Shown one piece after another: positions 5,940 through 46,324 of a DNA stretch of 64,000 nucleotides. The DNA is taken from contig VBMV01000047.1 of the NCBI GenBank assembly GCA_005878835.1, positions 1-64,000 of the forward strand, in the 5' to 3' direction. A program made the translations under genes and the position numbers. The stretch's first letter is position 1. The number at the start of each line of letters is the position of its first letter. The notes beneath the pieces are model-generated. The model did not search any database, was not told the origin of the DNA, and worked only from the letters and a program-made list of their open reading frames with translations. The stretch comes from Gammaproteobacteria bacterium. GTDB taxonomy: Bacteria; Pseudomonadota; Gammaproteobacteria; Steroidobacterales; Steroidobacteraceae.

Positions 5940-7403
5940 TCACCATCCGCCACCCAATGCTCGGAACGTACCTACGGCGGCTCTGGCCGAATCGGCACGC
6001 GTTTGCGCGAGCTCGTCTTGGGCAGTCAGCAGTTGGCGATCGGCGTCGAGAACATCGGTCAGGGCGATCACGCCTCCCTGGTACGCTTCTTGCGAGGCGT
6101 CTCGCGCCCGCTTCAGTGCGGCGGCCTCGGTGAGCAGCTCTTGTTGATGAGCCTCGAGTTGCACCAGTGATGTGAAGGCGTTCTCGACGTCTTCGGCTGC
6201 GCGCAGCACCGCCTGTTGGTATCGGGCGAGTGCTTCAGCGTTGGCACCTCTGGCCTGCGTCACTTGGGCGCTCACCTTGCCGAAATCAAACACCCGCCAA
6301 CGCAGCCCGACGACGCCCGGCGGCTGGAAGGTCGCGGCTTTGAACAAGTCGCTCGGGCGAGAGCTTTCGTAGCCGAGCAATCCCGCCAGGGAGATCTTCG
6401 GATAATAGTCCGCGAGAGCCTGGCCGATCCGGGCATTGGACGCTGCCAGGTGCCGTTCAGCGGCGATGACATCCGGCCCTCGGCGTAGCACCTCGAGCGG
6501 CCTATCGTTGGCTGGCACACTCGGCACAGAGGGGATGTCGCTCGGTATTTGTAGCTCCCCGGCGGAAGTCCCCGGCTGCACTCCCAGCAGTACGTCCAGG
6601 CGGTTGATTTGCGCCTCCAGGTCGATACGCAGCGGCTGTAGTGAGGCGCGGGCGTGTGACGCCAGTGCTTCGACTTGTGCAACCTCACGCACTGCCGCCA
6701 GCCCGCGGCCGAATCTCTGACGCACCAGCTCGAGCAGGCGCTCATCGGTGGCGACCTGCTGCTCGGCAACTGCGATGCGCGCCTGATCTCCCCGGATGCG
6801 CAAGTAGGCGTCCGCGGCATCCGCTGTCACGGAAATCCGTGTGCCGACCTGCTCGGCAATCGCGGCGTCCGCCTCAGCCGAGGCGGCCTCTCTGCCGCGG
6901 CGCAGACCGCCGAACAAGTCCAACTCCCACATCGCGCTCAGACCTGCATCGTAGATCGATTGGTTACGGTTGAAACCGGGCAGGGGGCCGGCGATCTGGC
7001 CTACCGGGCTCTCCAGGGAATAGTGGATTCGGGTCGCCTGGCCGTTGACATCGAAAGTTGGCAGGAGCTGCGCACCGGCCTCACGGGCCGCTGCCCGAGC
7101 CTGCTGGACTCGCGCCAATGCCGCCGCAAGATCGAGGTTCTGATCACGCACCCGTTGCACGATGCGCGAGAGCATCGGGTCGTTGAAGCCATCCCACCAG
7201 GCTTCGCGGGCCGGCGCAGGGTCGCGCGTCGGGTGAGCCGCGTGAGCCCCGACACTGTGGAAGTTCTCGAGCGTCGCCGCGGGTCTTCGATAAGAGGGGC
7301 CGACGGCGCAACCCGACATGCAGAGCTGCGAAAACAGGCTGAGCGAGGCGAGAACGGCCAGGAGCGCCCGCATAACGATGGCTCTATTGGAGACAAACCT
7401 CAT
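5940..7403 (-). CDS. outer-membrane efflux channel lipoprotein, NodT family
   Basis: 487 aa, the usual length for NodT/OprM channels. The signal peptide ends in a lipobox (MSGC) followed by AVGPSYRRP, the hallmark VGPDY/SY start of this family. Two outer-membrane efflux repeats follow, with long coiled helices rich in Ala/Arg/Gln (DLAAALARVQQARAAAREAGAQLLP) and LGYESS-type strands. It forms the trimeric exit duct for the RND pump. It is the first of the three structural genes, 35 bases before the adaptor, and in the same direction. Confidence 0.92.
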   Translation of the reverse strand: MRFVSNRAIVMRALLAVLASLSLFSQLCMSGCAVGPSYRRPAATLENFHSVGAHAAHPTRDPAPAREAWWDGFNDPMLSRIVQRVRDQNLDLAAALARVQQARAAAREAGAQLLPTFDVNGQATRIHYSLESPVGQIAGPLPGFNRNQSIYDAGLSAMWELDLFGGLRRGREAASAEADAAIAEQVGTRISVTADAADAYLRIRGDQARIAVAEQQVATDERLLELVRQRFGRGLAAVREVAQVEALASHARASLQPLRIDLEAQINRLDVLLGVQPGTSAGELQIPSDIPSVPSVPANDRPLEVLRRGPDVIAAERHLAASNARIGQALADYYPKISLAGLLGYESSRPSDLFKAATFQPPGVVGLRWRVFDFGKVSAQVTQARGANAEALARYQQAVLRAAEDVENAFTSLVQLEAHQQELLTEAAALKRARDASQEAYQGGVIALTDVLDADRQLLTAQDELAQTRADSARAAVGTFRALGGGW

Positions 7404-35650: not shown

Positions 35651-37663
35651 ATGACGACACGACGAGGATTGCTGCTGCTTGCGCTGCTGGCCGCACTGCA
35701 GCCTCACGCGTACGCACGCGGCGTAACCCCCTATCTGCCGCTCAATCTGGACCCCGAGGTTGAACGCGAGGTGGAGCGCGTCCTCGTTCTGGGTGGCAAG
35801 CCTGTCATGACCCGACCTATCCCGGCGGCGGTGGTACTGGATGCATTGCCGAAAGCCTGTGAGGTCGATGCGGTTCTGTGCAGTCGCGTCCGCAGAGCTC
35901 TCAAGCAATACATGCAGGACACGGCGGTTGAGTTCACCAGCGTCGCGGGCGCGATCACCAACGGCTCGAAGACCGTGATGCCCAACCAGCACGGCGAAAC
36001 GGCGCAGAGTCCCTTTCAGGTGGCGGGTGCGGCGTACATCCAGCCGAGCGCCTACGCTTTGGTGAATGTGGGCGGTGTGGCTTACCAGGGAAGGGAGAGG
36101 GCGACCGGGTCGCTGATCAGCCTCGGCTTTGACTGGGCACAGCTCGATCTGGGCTTCCGTGATCACTGGTGGTCGCCCATGACCGACAGCGCCATGCTGA
36201 TCAGCACGCAAGCACCGACCATGCCGTCCGTCACTGTCTCGAACTATGACCCGTTGACGCGCCTGGGTTTGCAGTACGAGGTATTTGCCGCCCGCATGTC
36301 GTACTCGGACAAGATCGAGCTCACCAATGGGAATTTGACGCGCGGCTATCCCAAGTTCGCCGGCCTGCACCTGGGCATCGAGCCCGGGAATTCCGGTTGG
36401 TCGCTCGCGGCCAACCGTATCATCGTGTTCGGCGGCGGCGCCGCGGGTGGGCAGTCGATCAGCGGCATTCTCCGGGCATTTTTCAATGCCACCCAGTGCC
36501 AGACCACGGGGTGCGGCACGACCGCCATCATCGGCAAGCAGGAAGCCTCGGTCACGAGCCGATTCATTTTCCCGGGCAGGGTGCCGTTCTCCGTCTATTT
36601 CGAATTCGCTGGCAACGACACGGCTGGCGGCAACAGGTTGCTGTTCTCGAAGACGGATCTTTCGGCGGGCATTCACTTCCCGCGTGTCGGTCCGTTCGAC
36701 GTCACGTACGAGCTCTCCGAGTGGCAGCCGACCTGGTACGTGCACCGCCACAGTGCGGTGCAGACCGGTTACGGCGACGGCATAACGAACTATTTACTCA
36801 GCATTGGCCACTGGTTCGGCGATCAACGGGCGTTCGGCGACGCCGTGGGCGGTCAAAGCAACATGCTGCGTGTGGGGTGGGAGCCCCGACTGGGCGGTCT
36901 TCTCGAAGCACGATTCCGCTCACTCACGAACGATTCCTTCTACTCCGCCAGCGCATATCGCCACGAGAATATGGGCTCGTTGACCTACTCCTACCCGTGG
37001 AAGGATTACGTACTGGGAACCGAGATCGACTACGGGCGTGACGTCTTTGGCGCCCATTACACGCGCTTAGTCGGCTTCCTGCGCTACGGCGACGCTCTGC
37101 ACTCCGATGCCGACTCCGCGGAAGAATCCGGCGACGTTCCGCGCCCCGATCGCGCCGAGATCTTCGTTGACGCCGGCGTCGTCGCCAACCGCGTACTGTC
37201 GGACATCACATCGTGTCATACGATCACACCATCGTGTCAAACGATCACACCGCGCGTTGAGTCAGGCACATCCTATGGGGCCCACGTCGCTCTGGGAGCG
37301 CGGCGCGCGGTCTCGGAGCACCAGGATGTGGGTGTGGCAGTTGAAGCTGACGACATTCAGGGTCTCTCGCTGGTAGGCGCTCGTATCCTCGACTATCGCT
37401 ATCGGTTCACCGGGCCCCTCGCCCTGAGCCTGTTTGGCGGGGCTGCGCGTTACGCCAACGCCACGCCGGCCTATGGCTTCTATCTAGGGGGCGGACTTCA
37501 GTGGCGCGACCTCATGCCGCATTGGGACCTTGGCATCGACTATCGGTACGCCGCCAAACTCGACCGCCTGCGAGTCCTGCCGGGCGAGCCGCAGGGCGGC
37601 TATCGCCCCGACGCGTACTACGATGTGTCCATGGGAACGCTGTACGTGTCGCGCAAATTCTGA
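35651..37663 (+). CDS. Wzi-family capsule assembly outer-membrane protein
   Basis: 670 aa with signal peptide (LLLLALLAALQPHAYA-RG). It shows the Wzi layout: an N-terminal helical segment (LDPEVEREVERVLVLGGKPVMTRPI), then an 18-strand barrel with FDWAQLDLGFRDHWWSPMTDSAMLIST, NRIIVFGGG, and a barrel end with YRYAAKLDRLRVLPGE and LYVSRKF. Wzi binds capsular polysaccharide at the outer surface. A 21-base tandem duplication (37210-37251) repeats an S-C-x-T-I-T-P unit inside a loop. No Wza/Wzb/Wzc genes are nearby. Confidence 0.85.
   Translation: MTTRRGLLLLALLAALQPHAYARGVTPYLPLNLDPEVEREVERVLVLGGKPVMTRPIPAAVVLDALPKACEVDAVLCSRVRRALKQYMQDTAVEFTSVAGAITNGSKTVMPNQHGETAQSPFQVAGAAYIQPSAYALVNVGGVAYQGRERATGSLISLGFDWAQLDLGFRDHWWSPMTDSAMLISTQAPTMPSVTVSNYDPLTRLGLQYEVFAARMSYSDKIELTNGNLTRGYPKFAGLHLGIEPGNSGWSLAANRIIVFGGGAAGGQSISGILRAFFNATQCQTTGCGTTAIIGKQEASVTSRFIFPGRVPFSVYFEFAGNDTAGGNRLLFSKTDLSAGIHFPRVGPFDVTYELSEWQPTWYVHRHSAVQTGYGDGITNYLLSIGHWFGDQRAFGDAVGGQSNMLRVGWEPRLGGLLEARFRSLTNDSFYSASAYRHENMGSLTYSYPWKDYVLGTEIDYGRDVFGAHYTRLVGFLRYGDALHSDADSAEESGDVPRPDRAEIFVDAGVVANRVLSDITSCHTITPSCQTITPRVESGTSYGAHVALGARRAVSEHQDVGVAVEADDIQGLSLVGARILDYRYRFTGPLALSLFGGAARYANATPAYGFYLGGGLQWRDLMPHWDLGIDYRYAAKLDRLRVLPGEPQGGYRPDAYYDVSMGTLYVSRKF
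37210..37251 (+). repeat. 21-bp in-frame tandem duplication in the Wzi gene
   Basis: Two adjacent 21-base units at 37210-37230 and 37231-37251 differ at one base and encode a seven-residue repeat containing cysteine in a predicted extracellular or periplasmic loop. Slippage here would change loop length without a frameshift. Confidence 0.7.
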
Positions 37664-40394: not shown

Positions 40395-41444
40395 CTAGCG
40401 GCTCAACTCGCCGAGCAGCGACCCGATGACCTTTCCCAGCCCGGAGGACTCCCAGTCGTAGTGGAAGCGCACCGACACCGGCAGGCCGTGAACCTTCTGG
40501 TTCTCGCTCAAGTGATCCGCGGGCGTCAGGTTCAGCACGACGGTCATCGGACGGAGTCCAAACTGATCGACGAGGTCCACGGGCATGCGTTGCGTCAGGC
40601 GCGGCGGCTCGGCCACGGTGGCAAGCGTGCGCGTGCCGTCCGGGAAGCGGATGGTCGCCTGCATCCCGACCGTGAGGCGAATGCCGAACTTCGGCGAGGT
40701 GTAGGCGATCACCCGCGGGTTGTCGGTGCGCGCCAGGATGACCAGCGGCTCGCCCGGCGTGACGTATTCCCCGGGCTTGGCGGGCGTCTCGAGGACACGG
40801 CCGCCGTAGGCAGAGGAGAGGGTCAGGGAGCGTTGCTGGCGCTCGATGAGGTCGTGGTCGATCTCGGCCGTGTTGACCCCGGCGCGCTCGGCGGCCGCCC
40901 GCGCTTGCAGCACTCCTGCCTCCGCCTCGGCGGTCTGTGACTCGGCTGCGTTCTGCTCCGCGACCGTCGCCGCTCCCTGCTGAACGAGCCCCGCGATCGT
41001 GTCGCGCCGCTCTCCCTGATACCGAAGCACCCGCTCCCGCAGCAGCAGCTGCTCGCTCGCCGCCTTCTGCTGCCGCCGCACTCCCGCGGCGGCCTGCCGC
41101 TCGATCGCGTTGCGCGCCGCGGCCGCGTCGAGCTCGAGACTGTCGAGGACGGCGATCGTCTTCCCTGCCGCGACCGTTTCGCCGGCCAGGACGCCGAGCC
41201 GGTTGATGCGGCCGGACCGCGGTGCGCGGATCTCGTACTGCTCGAGGGCCACGGTGCCGTTGGCGGTCAGAGTGAGCCAGGATCCCACGACTCCGGTCAG
41301 GAGCAGCAGGATGGGCGAGAGCACCGCGAACAGGATCAAGTACCAGGCGATCTTGTGTCTCTGGCTCTTTGCCGTGGCGTAGAGGATCTTCACGCCGTCC
41401 AGCTGCTCGGGTGGACGCTGCCTGGATCTGAAACGCAACTGCAC
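40395..41444 (-). CDS. HlyD-like inner-membrane adaptor of polysaccharide exporter
   Basis: 349 aa from a GTG at 41444, two bases after the stop of the TolC fusion gene and with a GGGAG site. One N-terminal membrane helix (IAWYLILFAVLSPILLLLTGVVGSWL) is followed by a biotinyl-lipoyl half (YEIRAPRSGRINRLGVLAGETVAAGKTIAVLDS), a long Ala/Gln/Glu coiled hairpin, and the second half (YGGRVLETPAKPGEYVTPGEPLVILA). The topology matches adaptors such as HlyD and EmrA. With the TolC-like protein and the membrane glycosyltransferase it should form a trans-envelope conduit. Fourth gene of the operon. Confidence 0.85.
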   Translation of the reverse strand: MQLRFRSRQRPPEQLDGVKILYATAKSQRHKIAWYLILFAVLSPILLLLTGVVGSWLTLTANGTVALEQYEIRAPRSGRINRLGVLAGETVAAGKTIAVLDSLELDAAAARNAIERQAAAGVRRQQKAASEQLLLRERVLRYQGERRDTIAGLVQQGAATVAEQNAAESQTAEAEAGVLQARAAAERAGVNTAEIDHDLIERQQRSLTLSSAYGGRVLETPAKPGEYVTPGEPLVILARTDNPRVIAYTSPKFGIRLTVGMQATIRFPDGTRTLATVAEPPRLTQRMPVDLVDQFGLRPMTVVLNLTPADHLSENQKVHGLPVSVRFHYDWESSGLGKVIGSLLGELSR

Positions 41445-41446
41445 CG

Positions 41447-43540
41447 TTACTCTCCCGCGGCGAGCCGCGCGAGGCCCGAGGCATCCCGCCAGGCGTCCTC
41501 GATTTGCAGGGTGAGGCCGGAGAAGTTCGCGGCGGCGAGCTGGGATTCAACGCGCTCGATGCGCCGGCGGCGCTCGGCTTCCGTATAGGACCAGAGGCTC
41601 TCCTCTCGACCGAGCGACTTCTCGAGGCTCAAGGCGACACTGAAGGAGAGCTCCGGATGGTGTCCGAGCAGCGGCTCGGCGATCTCCACCGCGCGATCGG
41701 GGTTTGCCACGTAGACCATGAGGGTAGGGGAGACCCGGAGCCGGTGCAGCACCTCGGCGAAGCTCGAGTCCCCGACCGGCGCGTCCAGATCGCGCGGGTG
41801 GACGCTGAGCGCCACGGGCCACGGGCTGGCCGCGCTCGCGGCGACGAGGGTCTGCGCCAGCGAGCCGAGGAGCGCCGGGAGCCTGTCGGGTGCCGGGTCG
41901 ATCTGCGCGGGCTCGAGATCGAGATGCAGGCCGTCGAAGGGCACGGACTTGAGGGCCTCGATGATGCGCAGGAGCCCCGCACGCTGCTCGGGCCGGATCC
42001 AGTCGGGATCGCCAAGCAGCAGCTCGACTTTGAAGCCGTGCTCGTGGGTGTTGCGCACGGCACGCAGCAGCGGGGAGGGGTCGGCGCTCACGCGGCGCAT
42101 CTGAGCGGCATCGAGCGAGACCAGGAGTCGCTCGATGCCGGCCGCGTGGATTGCGCGGAGCTTGCGTTCCCCGAGCTCAGTGGCGCCTTCAGTGAGCCAC
42201 TCGGCCGAGTGCCAGAGGTAAAGCGCCCGCCCGCCCGGTCGGGCCGCCGGCTGCGTCGGGGCAGTGCTGGCCGTCGACTGACAGGGACTCGTCTCGAAGC
42301 GCGCCCAGTCGGCGTACCAGTAGACCATCGCCTTGTCGGCCTCGACCAGCGACTTGGCCGCGTTGTAACGCTGCAGGCGCGCCCGCTGCAGCTGCTCGGC
42401 CACGTCGCCTTCGAGCTTCACGGCGCGCAGGTCGCGCTCGTGAACCGCCGCGTCCGCGGAAGCGAGCCGGGCCGAGGCGAATTCCGAATTCCGACGCAGC
42501 ACCGCGGCGCGGGCGATGAGCTCGCGCCGCTGCTGTTGCAGCTCCTGCCGCCGGACCTCGTACTCGAGTTGGGCGCGGGAGAGCTGCGCGGCGGCCGCGC
42601 GGGCGAGTAAGCGGCGCTGTGACAGGTACTCGATCGGGACCTGGAACGACCAGCTGAGGACCGCGGAGCCGCCGTGCTGTCCGGTCGGCATGTCATCGCG
42701 TGCGGTGTAGCCGAGCTGGACGCTGGATTGCACCGGATACAGCGCGTTGTCACGCGGGCTGCTTTGCCTCAGGGCAATGACTTTCTGCAGCCCGGCGAGC
42801 TCCGGGTCCGAATCGGTCCAGTCCTCACTCGAGTCGACACCGCGCACGCACGCGAGGGGCACCAGAGGCCGCACCGCCACGCCGCCATCGAGATCCTGAC
42901 CGGTGAACTCGCGCATCAGGGCGAGCGCGACTTCCCGGTCGGCGCCGCCCGAGGCCTCGTCGCGCCGGGCGAGGGAGAACCCGGTGAGAAGCTCGAGACG
43001 GTCGGCTTCGAGCAACAGGCCCGCCCGCGTACGCAGCGCAGCGAGGTGCTCGAAGGTGGGCTCGTCCTGGAGATACCCCTGCGCCAGCACCTCGAGGCGT
43101 TGCGCCTGCCAGTAGTCGCCGTACGCCTTACGCAGTCGCGCGATCAGCTCACGGCGTTGAAGCTGGCGCCGGGCGTCGAGCTGCAGCACCTGCAGCCGCT
43201 GCTCGGCGAGCGAGTCCTCGAGCTGCAGCCGGCTGCCGAGCACCGGTACCGACAGGCCGCCGCCCGCCAGTCCCTGGTTGTAGCCCCACGAATGCGTCGG
43301 ATCGATGATGTCGTGGTTGTGCGAGTAGCCGACACTGCCGAAGGCGCTCACGCCCAGGCCGATGCGGCCCGCGCTGAACGCATCGCGCGCGGATTCGAAG
43401 GTCCGCTCGGCGAGCTGCGCGGCGGGGGAGAGTTCGACGCGCGTCTCGAGCTGCTCGAGCGGCGGCAGGGCGAGCGCCACCGCCGGACCGAGCAGGAGGG
43501 CCGGAATCAGGGTGCACAGGATGCGTGCCGCCGTGATCAT
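41447..43540 (-). CDS. TolC-like outer-membrane channel fused to a TIM-barrel hydrolase-like domain
   Basis: About 697 aa from ATG 43540, four bases after the glycosyltransferase stop. Residues 1-430 form an outer-membrane efflux protein: signal peptide (LIPALLLGPAVALA), a SVGYSHNHDI strand, long coiled helices with LDARRQLQRRELIARLRKAYGDYWQAQ and RRQELQQQRRELIARAAVLRR. Residues ~450-697 are a different fold: GRALYLWHSAEWL, AIHAAGIERLLVSLDAAQMRR, HGFKVELLLGDPDWI, VPFDGLHLDLEPAQ and PVALSVHPRD. These are repeating beta-alpha units with acidic residues at strand ends, as in glycoside-hydrolase or deacetylase-like TIM barrels. Such a hydrolase tethered to the export duct is unusual. The active-site assignment (D-L-E in HLDLEP) is inferred. 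Confidence 0.75.
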   Translation of the reverse strand: MITAARILCTLIPALLLGPAVALALPPLEQLETRVELSPAAQLAERTFESARDAFSAGRIGLGVSAFGSVGYSHNHDIIDPTHSWGYNQGLAGGGLSVPVLGSRLQLEDSLAEQRLQVLQLDARRQLQRRELIARLRKAYGDYWQAQRLEVLAQGYLQDEPTFEHLAALRTRAGLLLEADRLELLTGFSLARRDEASGGADREVALALMREFTGQDLDGGVAVRPLVPLACVRGVDSSEDWTDSDPELAGLQKVIALRQSSPRDNALYPVQSSVQLGYTARDDMPTGQHGGSAVLSWSFQVPIEYLSQRRLLARAAAAQLSRAQLEYEVRRQELQQQRRELIARAAVLRRNSEFASARLASADAAVHERDLRAVKLEGDVAEQLQRARLQRYNAAKSLVEADKAMVYWYADWARFETSPCQSTASTAPTQPAARPGGRALYLWHSAEWLTEGATELGERKLRAIHAAGIERLLVSLDAAQMRRVSADPSPLLRAVRNTHEHGFKVELLLGDPDWIRPEQRAGLLRIIEALKSVPFDGLHLDLEPAQIDPAPDRLPALLGSLAQTLVAASAASPWPVALSVHPRDLDAPVGDSSFAEVLHRLRVSPTLMVYVANPDRAVEIAEPLLGHHPELSFSVALSLEKSLGREESLWSYTEAERRRRIERVESQLAAANFSGLTLQIEDAWRDASGLARLAAGE

Positions 43541-43544
43541 GCGG

Positions 43545-44888
43545 TCAGAACTTGGTGCGCCGGAGCACCCAGGACGGCGCCATCGCGGACTCGAGATGCG
43601 ACTTGCCGAGCAGCTCGTTGAGTGTCGCAATCGCGTTCCAGCAGCGGGTGAGGAACGTGAACCCCGGGAAGGCCAGCAGCATCCAGGCGAGCTTGAGGTC
43701 CTGCCGGCGGCGCTCGGAATAGAGGAACCAGTATTCCACGTACATCAAAGCGGCCAGCAGGGTATAGAAGAGGTACACGAACGCCAGCACGCCGAGCGTC
43801 ACGGCGGCCGGATAGACGAACAGCATGTAGATCGTGTAGGTGAGCAACACGAACGGCAGCGCCAGCTGAAACAGCAGCCCGGTCCAGACCAGCGCGAGGA
43901 AATTACGCAGGCCCATGAGCCCGGGCCGCAGGTGATGGCGGTACTTGCGCAGGTACAGGTAAGAGAGGTCTCCGTCCCAGCGCAACCGCTGCTTGAGGAA
44001 ACCCCGGAACGTCTCGGGCACGTCGGTGTGTCCCATGGCCCGCGGCTCGAAGCGGATGCGTAAGTCGGGGTGGCGCGCGAAATACTTCTTGATGCGCAGC
44101 GTGAGATCGAGATCCTCGGCCGTGCCGCTGTCCCAGCCGCCGATGCGCCGCAGGAAGTCGCGGCGGAAGACGCCGAACGCGCCGGAGATGTTGTTCACGA
44201 GATTGAAGGCGTCCAGCCCCGCGCGGCTCAGGTGTATCGAGAGCGCGTACTCGAGGGCCTGCAGGCGCGTGACGAAGCTGCTGCGGGCGTTGCGGGCGCG
44301 CAGGTTCCCCGACACCGCGACGACGTTCTGATCGGCGAAGTGCCGTACGGCGTGCCGCACCATGTCGTTGTCGAAGGAGGTGTCGCCGTCGAGGGCCATG
44401 ACGATCTCGCCGGAAGCCAGCGCGAGCCCCTGGTTCAGGCTCGAGACACGCCCGCCGCGCTGCAGCTTGGGGACGATCTCGAGGCGGCGGAGCTTCCTCG
44501 CATTGACGTACGACTGTAGCGCCCGCAGCGCCGTGAGTGTCGCGCGGTTCTGCACGGCCCCATCCACCACTGCGAGCATCTCGACCGGACCGTCGTAGAG
44601 TTGCTCGGTGAGCGAGCGGACGGTCTTCTGCACGTCCGCGCCCTCGGAGTAGCAGGTGATGACGCAGGAGACACTCGGATGGTAGGCGAGCGGGTAGCGC
44701 GCGGTGCGCCGCCCCTCGATGTAACGGCGCACCCCGCCGAGCATCACCAGTGCCTGGATCGGCAGCTCGAACATCAGCACGAACGGAAAGAACTTGAGGG
44801 CGATGACGATCCAGTCGGATCGCCAGACCGCTTCCAGCAGCTGCAGCAGCGTGAGCCACGCGCCGGTCAGGGTGAGTATCGCGTCCAT
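43545..44888 (-). CDS. membrane glycosyltransferase family 2 (polysaccharide synthase)
   Basis: 447 aa. The ATG at 44888 overlaps the regulator's stop (TGATG). Two membrane helices lie at the N-terminus. The catalytic domain has SVSCVITCYSEG, DGDTSFD (DxD), SGTAEDLDLTLR (third Asp/ED) and QRLRWDGD (the Q-x-x-RW motif of processive synthases). Three or four helices follow (FLALVWTGLLFQLALPFVLLTYTIYMLF, ALAFVYLFYTLLAALMYVEYW). This is the BcsA/HAS/PgaC type of enzyme that polymerises and extrudes a chain across the inner membrane. No PilZ domain is present, so any c-di-GMP control would come through the adjacent regulator. Confidence 0.9.
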   Translation of the reverse strand: MDAILTLTGAWLTLLQLLEAVWRSDWIVIALKFFPFVLMFELPIQALVMLGGVRRYIEGRRTARYPLAYHPSVSCVITCYSEGADVQKTVRSLTEQLYDGPVEMLAVVDGAVQNRATLTALRALQSYVNARKLRRLEIVPKLQRGGRVSSLNQGLALASGEIVMALDGDTSFDNDMVRHAVRHFADQNVVAVSGNLRARNARSSFVTRLQALEYALSIHLSRAGLDAFNLVNNISGAFGVFRRDFLRRIGGWDSGTAEDLDLTLRIKKYFARHPDLRIRFEPRAMGHTDVPETFRGFLKQRLRWDGDLSYLYLRKYRHHLRPGLMGLRNFLALVWTGLLFQLALPFVLLTYTIYMLFVYPAAVTLGVLAFVYLFYTLLAALMYVEYWFLYSERRRQDLKLAWMLLAFPGFTFLTRCWNAIATLNELLGKSHLESAMAPSWVLRRTKF

Positions 44889-46324
44889 CAGCCGACGCGG
44901 CTCCGCAGGGTGCCCATGAGGAGGCGCGCGTTGGTGCTGCCCGCGCCGGCGTCGGCGGAGGTGAAGGAGGCGGTTGCGATCTCGATGCGCAATCCTTCCT
45001 CCGGCGTCGCTGCGGCGCCGAGCGCCACGATGCGCTCGAGGAGGATCGCGACGCCTGCGGGCAGGGTCTGCGGCAGCAGCAGCCAGCAGCACGCATCGTC
45101 ATCGCGCATGAAGAGGTCGGTGGTGCGGATCAAGGCCCGCAGGCGCTGCGCCAGCGCATCGAACATCTGCGCGACGCGATGGCGCGGGAGGCGGGAAGCG
45201 AGCAGGTGAACGTTGGCGAACTTCAGGCACACCAGGCCGAACTGCACTTCCTCGTGCCGGCGGGAGAGGTCGAGCAGCCACTCGAGCGTGCGGCTGAAGT
45301 ACTCGGGGTGTGCATGGCTGAACTCGTCGAGGAGCTTGAAGAGGTCGCCCACCTGGCCGGTGCGGGCGGCGAGCTCGCCGGCCGCCGACAGGCGCAGCCC
45401 GTAGTAGTTGCGCTCGGAGAGCGCGTCGGTGCCGCAGGTCTTGCGACACTGAAGGCAGCGAGCCTTCACGTTGGGCTCCGTGAAGCGTCCCGAGCAGTCC
45501 TTGCACACGAAGGTTTCGAGAGCTCGGTCGTAGTCGACGCCGATGTGGCGCAGCCGCACCGCGCATTTCGGGCAGGTGAGCCCCTCGTTGGTCAGGTACT
45601 CCTCCTGAGTCCCGACGTGGCCGCAGGAGTAGCAATGGAGGAAATTCTGCTCGGCGGTGTCGATGCTGCCGCATTGCGGGCAGGTCTCGATGAAGAGCAG
45701 CTGGCCCGCGGAGCACGACGGGCAGGTGTGCACCCGCTCGACGAGGCCCGCGGTCTCGAGCAACCCGCGGCGACGCAACCGCTCGAGCATGAGGAAGCTA
45801 TCCTCCCCGGGACGGCCCAACGCATCCGCCAGCGGGTACCGGTAGATCCTCTCGTCGCGCCAGTCGGCAACCGGTGTCAAAACCCGCTCGGTCCGCAGGT
45901 ACAGGAAGGCGAGCAGCCGCTCGTCGCCCTCGGCCGTCTCCCGCCGGCTGAGGGATGGGGCGCGGGCGGCAATGGCCGCGGCCTCCGGGGCTGCCGCCTC
46001 CGGGGTCGAGGCGACACCGTCGCTGAGCGCATCGACCGCTTCCCCGAATGACCGGTTGAGGAAGATGGGCAGCAGGGCCAGCCGTGGAGCGCGCCGCAGG
46101 CTTTCCAGCCAGCTCGCAGCCTGCCGGGCATCGCCCGGCGTCAAAAGCAGCGCATCGGGAGCGAAACCGGCCGCCAGGAGCTGGGGCGCTTCGGCGTAAT
46201 GGGGGCCTTCAGTCCAATGATCGGGCGCAACCGCGCCGCCGGACTCGGCGGATGTGCGCTTGGCGACCAGCGTCGAGATCGCCGGCAAGACGCGCAGTCT
46301 TACGCTCGTGGATGCGGTAGGCAT
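44888..46324 (-). CDS. TackOD1 zinc-ribbon regulator with degenerate GGDEF-like C-domain
   Basis: 478 aa. The N-terminus (1-130) is a receiver-like alpha/beta domain lacking clear phospho-acceptor residues (FAPDALLLTPGDARQAASWLESL, LLPIFLNRSF). The middle carries three CxxC ribbons: HTCPSCSAG, ETCPQCGS, HCYSCGHVGTQEEY, then CPKCAVRLRHIGVDYDR and FVCKDCSGRF plus CLQCRKTCG. This pattern, including LRHIGVDYD, is that of the TackOD1 output domain. The last 190 residues (VQFGLVCLKFANVHLLASRLPRHRVAQMFDALAQRLRALIRTTDLFMRDDDACCWLLLPQT) have the GGDEF fold order but no GGDEF signature. It is the first gene of the operon and probably senses a signal for polymer output. Confidence 0.75.
   Translation of the reverse strand: MPTASTSVRLRVLPAISTLVAKRTSAESGGAVAPDHWTEGPHYAEAPQLLAAGFAPDALLLTPGDARQAASWLESLRRAPRLALLPIFLNRSFGEAVDALSDGVASTPEAAAPEAAAIAARAPSLSRRETAEGDERLLAFLYLRTERVLTPVADWRDERIYRYPLADALGRPGEDSFLMLERLRRRGLLETAGLVERVHTCPSCSAGQLLFIETCPQCGSIDTAEQNFLHCYSCGHVGTQEEYLTNEGLTCPKCAVRLRHIGVDYDRALETFVCKDCSGRFTEPNVKARCLQCRKTCGTDALSERNYYGLRLSAAGELAARTGQVGDLFKLLDEFSHAHPEYFSRTLEWLLDLSRRHEEVQFGLVCLKFANVHLLASRLPRHRVAQMFDALAQRLRALIRTTDLFMRDDDACCWLLLPQTLPAGVAILLERIVALGAAATPEEGLRIEIATASFTSADAGAGSTNARLLMGTLRSRVG

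Follow-up and report, generated by a model that had tools for sequence, protein, structure and literature searches.

A stretch of 64,000 nucleotides from a soil-dwelling Gammaproteobacteria bacterium of the Steroidobacteraceae (contig VBMV01000047.1 of assembly GCA_005878835.1; hereafter the window) carries, on its minus strand from position 46324 to 40395, an operon of four genes encoding a TackOD1 protein, a glycosyltransferase of family 2 (GT2), a TolC-like outer-membrane channel fused to a TIM barrel (TolC-TIM), and a HlyD-family adaptor (Table 1). An earlier note on this DNA had assigned these identities, citing the DxD, ED and QxxRW motifs of the GT2, and had described the genes as overlapping or at most four bases apart. 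Both observations are confirmed. Pfam matches were obtained to TackOD1 (E = 9e-63), Glyco_trans_2_3 (4e-25), OEP (3e-9) and HlyD_3 (6e-10); the ATG of the GT2 gene overlaps the TGA of the preceding TackOD1 gene by one base, and the two following gaps measure 4 and 2 bases. The adaptor has a single N-terminal hydrophobic (membrane) segment at residues 36–54, as judged from hydropathy. No promoter-like match was found, the only terminator-like match lies inside the GT2 gene, with 2.3 expected by chance, and no Rfam family matched within the window at gathering thresholds.

Table 1. Features of the operon, with positions in the window
Feature	Position	Strand	Basis
TackOD1 protein, 478 amino acids	44888..46324	-	Pfam, predicted model
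RxxD (R400-D403), putative c-di-GMP I-site	45116..45127	-	alignment of 33
Membrane GT2 polysaccharide synthase (predicted), 447 amino acids	43545..44888	-	Pfam, NCBIfam, solved relatives, hydropathy
TolC/OEP part of the fusion, its N-terminal segment hydrophobic and signal-like (whole TolC-TIM gene 41447..43540)	42251..43540	-	Pfam OEP (40.0 bits), hydropathy
C-terminal TIM barrel, residues 431–697, glycosidase-like	41447..42250	-	predicted fold, structural matches
E543, candidate catalytic acid, LDLE motif, end of strand 4	41912..41914	-	38/38
E640, candidate second catalytic acid, end of strand 7	41621..41623	-	38/38
HlyD-family adaptor, 349 amino acids, GTG start	40395..41444	-	Pfam HlyD_3 and HlyD_D23, hydropathy

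Conservation and spread of the cassette

A TolC-TIM profile, built from five sequences of which one is partial, was run against 84,980 GTDB species, each represented by one genome. The scan returned 125 pattern stretches, and relatives are encoded at 40 loci. Three loci (L018, L019 and L020) were dropped as duplicates of G034, G014 and G033; L018 has all four genes, and in L019 and L020 the contig begins within the GT2 and the TolC-TIM gene. The TackOD1, GT2, TIM and HlyD genes lie in one order and on one strand in 35 of the 37 remaining loci. The two exceptions, L025 and L054, are on contigs that begin inside the TolC-TIM gene; thus, the arrangement is kept in every testable locus (35/35), including those that are partial, with TackOD1 cut by a contig end (L017 and L049) or two genes split by frame (L024). 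Co-occurrence of the four families in other genomes, which the earlier note had proposed to look for, was therefore found, together with many TackOD1-GT2-HlyD relatives in which TolC-TIM is not detected. The constancy of gene order rules out chance neighbours. By record title, the carriers are Pseudomonas, Stutzerimonas, Marinobacter, Nitratidesulfovibrio and Pantoea (one record), as well as metagenome-assembled genomes (MAGs) of Gammaproteobacteria, Chromatiales, Paucimonas, Deltaproteobacteria, Planctomycetota and Synechococcus. Cultured, non-pathogenic carriers include Stutzerimonas degradans DSM 50238 and Pseudomonas matsuisoli JCM 30078. Across the 33 loci with four usable genes, the pairwise identities of the four products are correlated with rho of 0.93–0.95, a level reached in none of 999 permutations, and the cassette has therefore been inherited as a unit.

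The converse search used a TackOD1-GGDEF profile, which matched 17 of 369 genomes in a class sample and 15 of 398 in a phylum sample (two genomes, G000 and G481, are common to both). GT2 and HlyD genes adjoin TackOD1 in 15 of the 16 class-sample genomes whose flanks were read (15 plus the window; matches in G565 are partial). The seventeenth, G347, stands outside this count, and its coordinates fit L024, a four-gene locus. In the phylum sample both genes lie beside TackOD1 in 15/15, the HlyD gene of G884 being truncated by the end of its contig. The clusters fall into three layouts. Layout A, TackOD1-GT2-TolC.TIM-HlyD, is that of the window and of L097, L098, L139 and L140. Layout B, TackOD1-GT2-HlyD with no TIM detected, accounts for 14 loci (L084–L089, L141–L145 and L150–L152), and layout C, HlyD-TackOD1-GT2, for 10 (L090–L095 and L146–L149). 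Six of the ten layout C loci have a weak TIM match directly before HlyD (E from 3e-7 to 6e-16), in five cases within an open frame of about 690–700 amino acids. At E ≤ 1e-10, the TIM profile matches 6 of the 369 class genomes. The clusters of layouts B and C (L084–L095 and L141–L152) form, with the cassette, a larger superfamily of TackOD1, GT2 and HlyD genes, many of whose members are without detected TolC-TIM.

The cassette also occurs on plasmids. When plasmids were searched with the TolC-TIM protein, two Aeromonas caviae records matched, over the TIM part. The one that was read, pKAM345_3, is predicted to be mobilizable and carries the full set of four in the same order (the GT2 gene runs across the start of the record and was pieced together from two parts); its annotation is piecemeal, namely diguanylate cyclase, TolC family protein and HlyD adaptor. 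The search with GT2 returned seven plasmid records, of which three besides Aeromonas were examined (a Photobacterium record had no gene table at that place), and layout B was found on plasmids of Plesiomonas and Alisedimentitalea. Plasmid p1 of Plesiomonas shigelloides (L100, 5590-9290) has genes annotated as a diguanylate cyclase, a glycosyltransferase and a HlyD adaptor, in that order; the cluster lies near N-acetylmannosamine and sialic acid genes. The Alisedimentitalea plasmid (L099, 5623-10277) encodes TackOD1 in a protein of 312 amino acids, a small hypothetical protein, GT2, HlyD and then galE, which may point to a sugar of the galactose type in this cluster.

Within the genus of the window, the TolC-TIM gene is present in 4 of 37 genomes, its own included, and the same search found it in none of 23 other genomes of the order; an order-wide sample yielded it in 2 of 296, the window's own genome and G034. 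In the window, the operon is preceded by a DUF4279 gene on the same strand, 214 bases away, and followed by a convergent FmdA_AmdA gene, 318 bases away, and the same neighbours flank the cassette of G034. A gene for a Wzi-type outer-membrane capsule assembly protein (Pfam Caps_assemb_Wzi) lies about 2.7 kb from the operon (35651-37663) and stands beside it in G034 too. The same-genus genome G015 (75% complete) has an apparent empty site, in which the FmdA and DUF4279 genes are about 60 bases apart (L136, 4106-4164), and none of the four cassette genes matches that contig. Given this comparison and the patchy distribution in the genus, the cassette seems to be gained or lost as a whole.

The TolC-TIM fusion

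Residues 431–697 of the fusion protein are predicted to fold as an eight-stranded TIM barrel with a mean predicted local distance difference test score (pLDDT) of 92.8. Its best structural matches are mostly glycosidases (Cwp19, PgaB-C of family GH153, GH18, GH20 and PslG). No Pfam family matches the domain of the window protein at E ≤ 0.1, and its profile gave marginal matches only to PDB sequences, the best being a putative GH97 enzyme (E = 0.013), with chitinases at E of 1.1 to 1.7. Six residues (D541, E543, H581, R583, Y610 and E640) are invariant in 38/38 sequences, most of which share only 28–39% identity with the window's domain. In the model, strand 4 ends at domain residue 110 and strand 7 comprises domain residues 203–208.

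The other half of the protein matches Pfam OEP above the cut-off in the window, and 33 of 34 aligned members match at E ≤ 0.01. That the two halves are a true fusion, as the earlier note had it, is borne out: the barrel is predicted with confidence as an independent fold, and in three Synechococcus MAGs (L042, L047 and L049) it occurs without the TolC half, the lone barrel of L047 having an apparent signal and lipobox at its start. The possibility that the domain is an ordinary part of the channel was rejected on both grounds and, less strongly, on its higher conservation: mean column identity is 52% in the barrel (38 rows) vs 43% in the TolC half (34 partly different rows). A further TolC-family gene is present elsewhere in the window (5976-7169, open frame of 493 amino acids).

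The TackOD1 protein and the synthase

Three regions can be recognized in the TackOD1 protein: a receiver-like N-terminus (about residues 14–124, read off the model), a zinc-ribbon TackOD1 domain (129–310), and a degenerate GGDEF domain (330–478), of which the earlier note made no mention. The match to TackOD1 (PF18551) reaches 211.7 bits in the window protein against a cut-off of 32; 33/33 members match, the CxxC motifs are conserved, and 12 cysteines, those of the zinc ribbon among them, and 2 histidines are invariant. A clear GGDEF match is present in 32 of the 33. The RxxD of the I-site and R431 are kept in 33/33, whereas an intact GG[DE]EF is found in 0/33; the lost signature lies at residues 409–413, next to RxxD, so the protein does not carry the signature of an active diguanylate cyclase. 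In PelD of Bacillus cereus, the equivalent three residues (RxxD and a downstream arginine) are needed for binding of cyclic di-GMP (c-di-GMP) (PMC7112168). The TackOD1 protein is, on this pattern, likely a putative c-di-GMP receptor. A transcription or redox regulator acting without c-di-GMP would suit the invariant zinc-ribbon cysteines, the first description of TackOD1 as an output domain, of obscure function, of archaeal response regulators (PMC5847659), and the shorter protein of the Alisedimentitalea plasmid, which has no GGDEF match. We nevertheless regard such a role as unlikely, since the I-site is retained with the catalytic motif lost throughout the alignment, and Pfam detects no DNA-binding regulator family other than weak, sub-cut-off hits to TFIIB-type zinc ribbons.

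The GT2 is, by its sequence, a predicted polysaccharide synthase. Residues D109, D167xD169 and E258-D259 and the QxxRW motif are invariant in 29/29 aligned proteins, the window's included, and hydropathy places hydrophobic segments at both ends (26–44 and 331–381). Among NCBIfam models, PgaC/IcaA ranks first for the window GT2, and all 29 proteins match it at E ≤ 1e-10, none with a higher score than the window protein; the 161.8 bits of the latter lie far below the equivalog cut-off of 422.3, as do the 21.7 bits for the CelA equivalog (cut-off 699.1). Assignment to a known exopolysaccharide family was tried with curated models, and none reached its cut-off for the GT2s. Of the solved structures, that of an unspecified GT2 (6yv7) comes closest and hyaluronan synthases come next; chitin synthases are also among the relatives. 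The GT2 also scores, far under the cut-offs, to families whose products are not long polymers, HpnI, MftF and NodC among them, and the product might accordingly be a glycolipid or short oligosaccharide exported by HlyD-TolC. This reading appears improbable to us in view of the invariant motifs, the top rank of PgaC/IcaA, the processive hyaluronan and chitin synthases among the solved relatives, and the fusion of the channel to a glycosidase-like domain, which suits a passing chain. The product is presumably an exopolysaccharide.

A proposed machine and its relation to known systems

We think it probable that the four proteins work together as a single apparatus spanning the envelope, in which a polysaccharide is synthesized and exported under the control of c-di-GMP. 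Polymerization of a sugar nucleotide and passage of the chain across the inner membrane would both fall to the GT2, in the manner of processive synthases of this family. The cytosolic switch would be the TackOD1 protein: bound to the I-site of its dead GGDEF domain, c-di-GMP would activate the synthase, similar to the role of PelD in the Pel system. The HlyD protein, anchored beside the synthase, would bridge to the TolC half and so complete a closed duct to the outside, and the TIM barrel, on the periplasmic side of the channel, may cut chains, thereby freeing stalled ones or setting their length. Of this picture, the analysis shows the genes present, their order and conservation, the predicted folds and the conserved residues, whereas the polymer, c-di-GMP binding, assembly of the duct and hydrolysis are inferred. 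No ABC, RND or MFS pump family was detected by Pfam in the four proteins, OEP and HlyD being their only transporter families; for this reason, the synthase is the likely motor. Two loci of layout B fit the proposed mechanism: a GH16-family gene is next after HlyD in L085, and GGDEF and GGDEF-EAL genes flank the cluster of L088. The latter arrangement may resemble that of the c-di-GMP gene cluster FTN_0451-0456 of Francisella novicida. That cluster has been tied to c-di-GMP and biofilm (PMC9763628).

Several observations speak against this interpretation or restrict its reach. The GGDEF match of the window protein itself is weak (E = 0.037, under the Pfam cut-off), the profile of the TolC half found no relative in the PDB, G539 has TackOD1 without GT2 and HlyD alongside, and G610 has a second, solitary TackOD1 copy (L096). 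Clusters without a detected TIM domain outnumber those with one in both samples; the duct and hydrolase are thus not universal among TackOD1-GT2-HlyD clusters. Moreover, the top Foldseek hits of the barrel are mixed TIM-barrel enzymes with TM-scores near 0.5, and the VIA structural list also includes two non-enzymes, a xylanase inhibitor and concanavalin B, which leaves glycosidase activity unproven. Hydrolase-like domains may be retained for binding, and a catalytically dead barrel that binds glycan or caps the channel as a structural element fits such a list; we consider this unlikely, the six residues held invariant at such low overall identity being the pattern of an active site.

As summarized in a review, five polymers are synthase-dependent, and the typical set of components comprises a synthase, a c-di-GMP unit, a modification enzyme, and a pore coupled to tetratricopeptide repeats (TPR) (PMC7112194). 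In the cassette, the synthase is recognized by sequence, the c-di-GMP unit and modification enzyme are likely, and the TPR-coupled pore is replaced: no TPR matched in the four proteins by Pfam, and OEP is found instead. With the pore replaced and the middle two components only likely, the cassette is not filed as a member of this class, yet would work like one.

The Pel synthase belongs to family GT4, whereas that of the cassette is a GT2; the cassette also differs in the zinc ribbon of its regulator, in a proposed exit that uses HlyD-TolC in place of a TPR-barrel pore, and in the fusion of the putative hydrolase to the channel. The two systems share a regulator with a degenerate GGDEF domain and an I-site RxxD (PelD; PMC7112168) and, on the proposed reading of the cassette, a periplasmic glycosidase domain and export coupled to the synthase. 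From Pga, the cassette is set apart by a GT2 under the PgaC cut-off and by the lack of a match to a deacetylase or a PgaA-type pore. The XcsAB-TolC model of cyanobacterial cellulose export shares a GT2, a HlyD adaptor and a TolC exit, with a separate glycosidase, XcsC; it differs in that XcsA has PilZ, the genes may be scattered, and TolC is unfused (PMC12430437). The same review calls the model lacking in experimental validation. A periplasmic hydrolase fused to an outer-membrane pore is known from Zymomonas BcsZC (PMC7112194), which is a cellulose system, and the other parts of the cassette are not Bcs proteins.

The earlier note's interpretation is, on the whole, partly supported. A type I-like duct unlike those of known systems stands insofar as OEP takes the place of TPR, and loses some of its novelty to the HlyD and TolC of the XcsAB-TolC model; a glycan-processing domain of its own is indeed present as a fused barrel but is less distinctive than supposed, as other synthase systems have periplasmic hydrolases and BcsZC is a precedent for the fusion. 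The arrangement had not been recognized as a described pathway, and our searches agree: no tested curated family fits, and neither a description nor a name was found in titles and abstract openings of the papers listed from an open-access library (preprints and most subscription journals fall outside this scope). Likewise, no polysaccharide-exporting tripartite system was seen in the excerpt of a review of tripartite pumps (PMC8277102). That the cassette is a divergent form of Pga, Pel or the cyanobacterial Xcs cellulose system would suit the presence of counterparts for each functional role (a synthase, a c-di-GMP receptor, a periplasmic hydrolase and an outer-membrane exit) and the use of HlyD and TolC in the Xcs model. 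This, in our opinion, is very unlikely, as the GT2 misses the PgaC equivalog cut-off and no member scores better than the window's, deacetylase, TPR and PilZ have no match in the four proteins (for PilZ, at E ≤ 0.1 in Pfam), and the TIM domain lacks a Pfam family.

On balance, we lean towards the view that synthase-dependent exopolysaccharide systems include a sixth and widespread family, beside those of cellulose, acetylated cellulose, poly-N-acetylglucosamine (PNAG), alginate and Pel. It would be defined by a c-di-GMP receptor combining a zinc ribbon with a dead GGDEF domain and by a HlyD-TolC duct dedicated to polysaccharide, with a new glycosidase family in the channel and probably a new polymer. 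If this is true, one more synthase-type polysaccharide pathway would join the five listed in PMC7112194, a family of operons annotated piecemeal until now would be explained, and the TolC-HlyD principle of drug and protein export could be driven by a polymerase. For TackOD1, whose function has been obscure, the cassette also suggests a role that can be tested.

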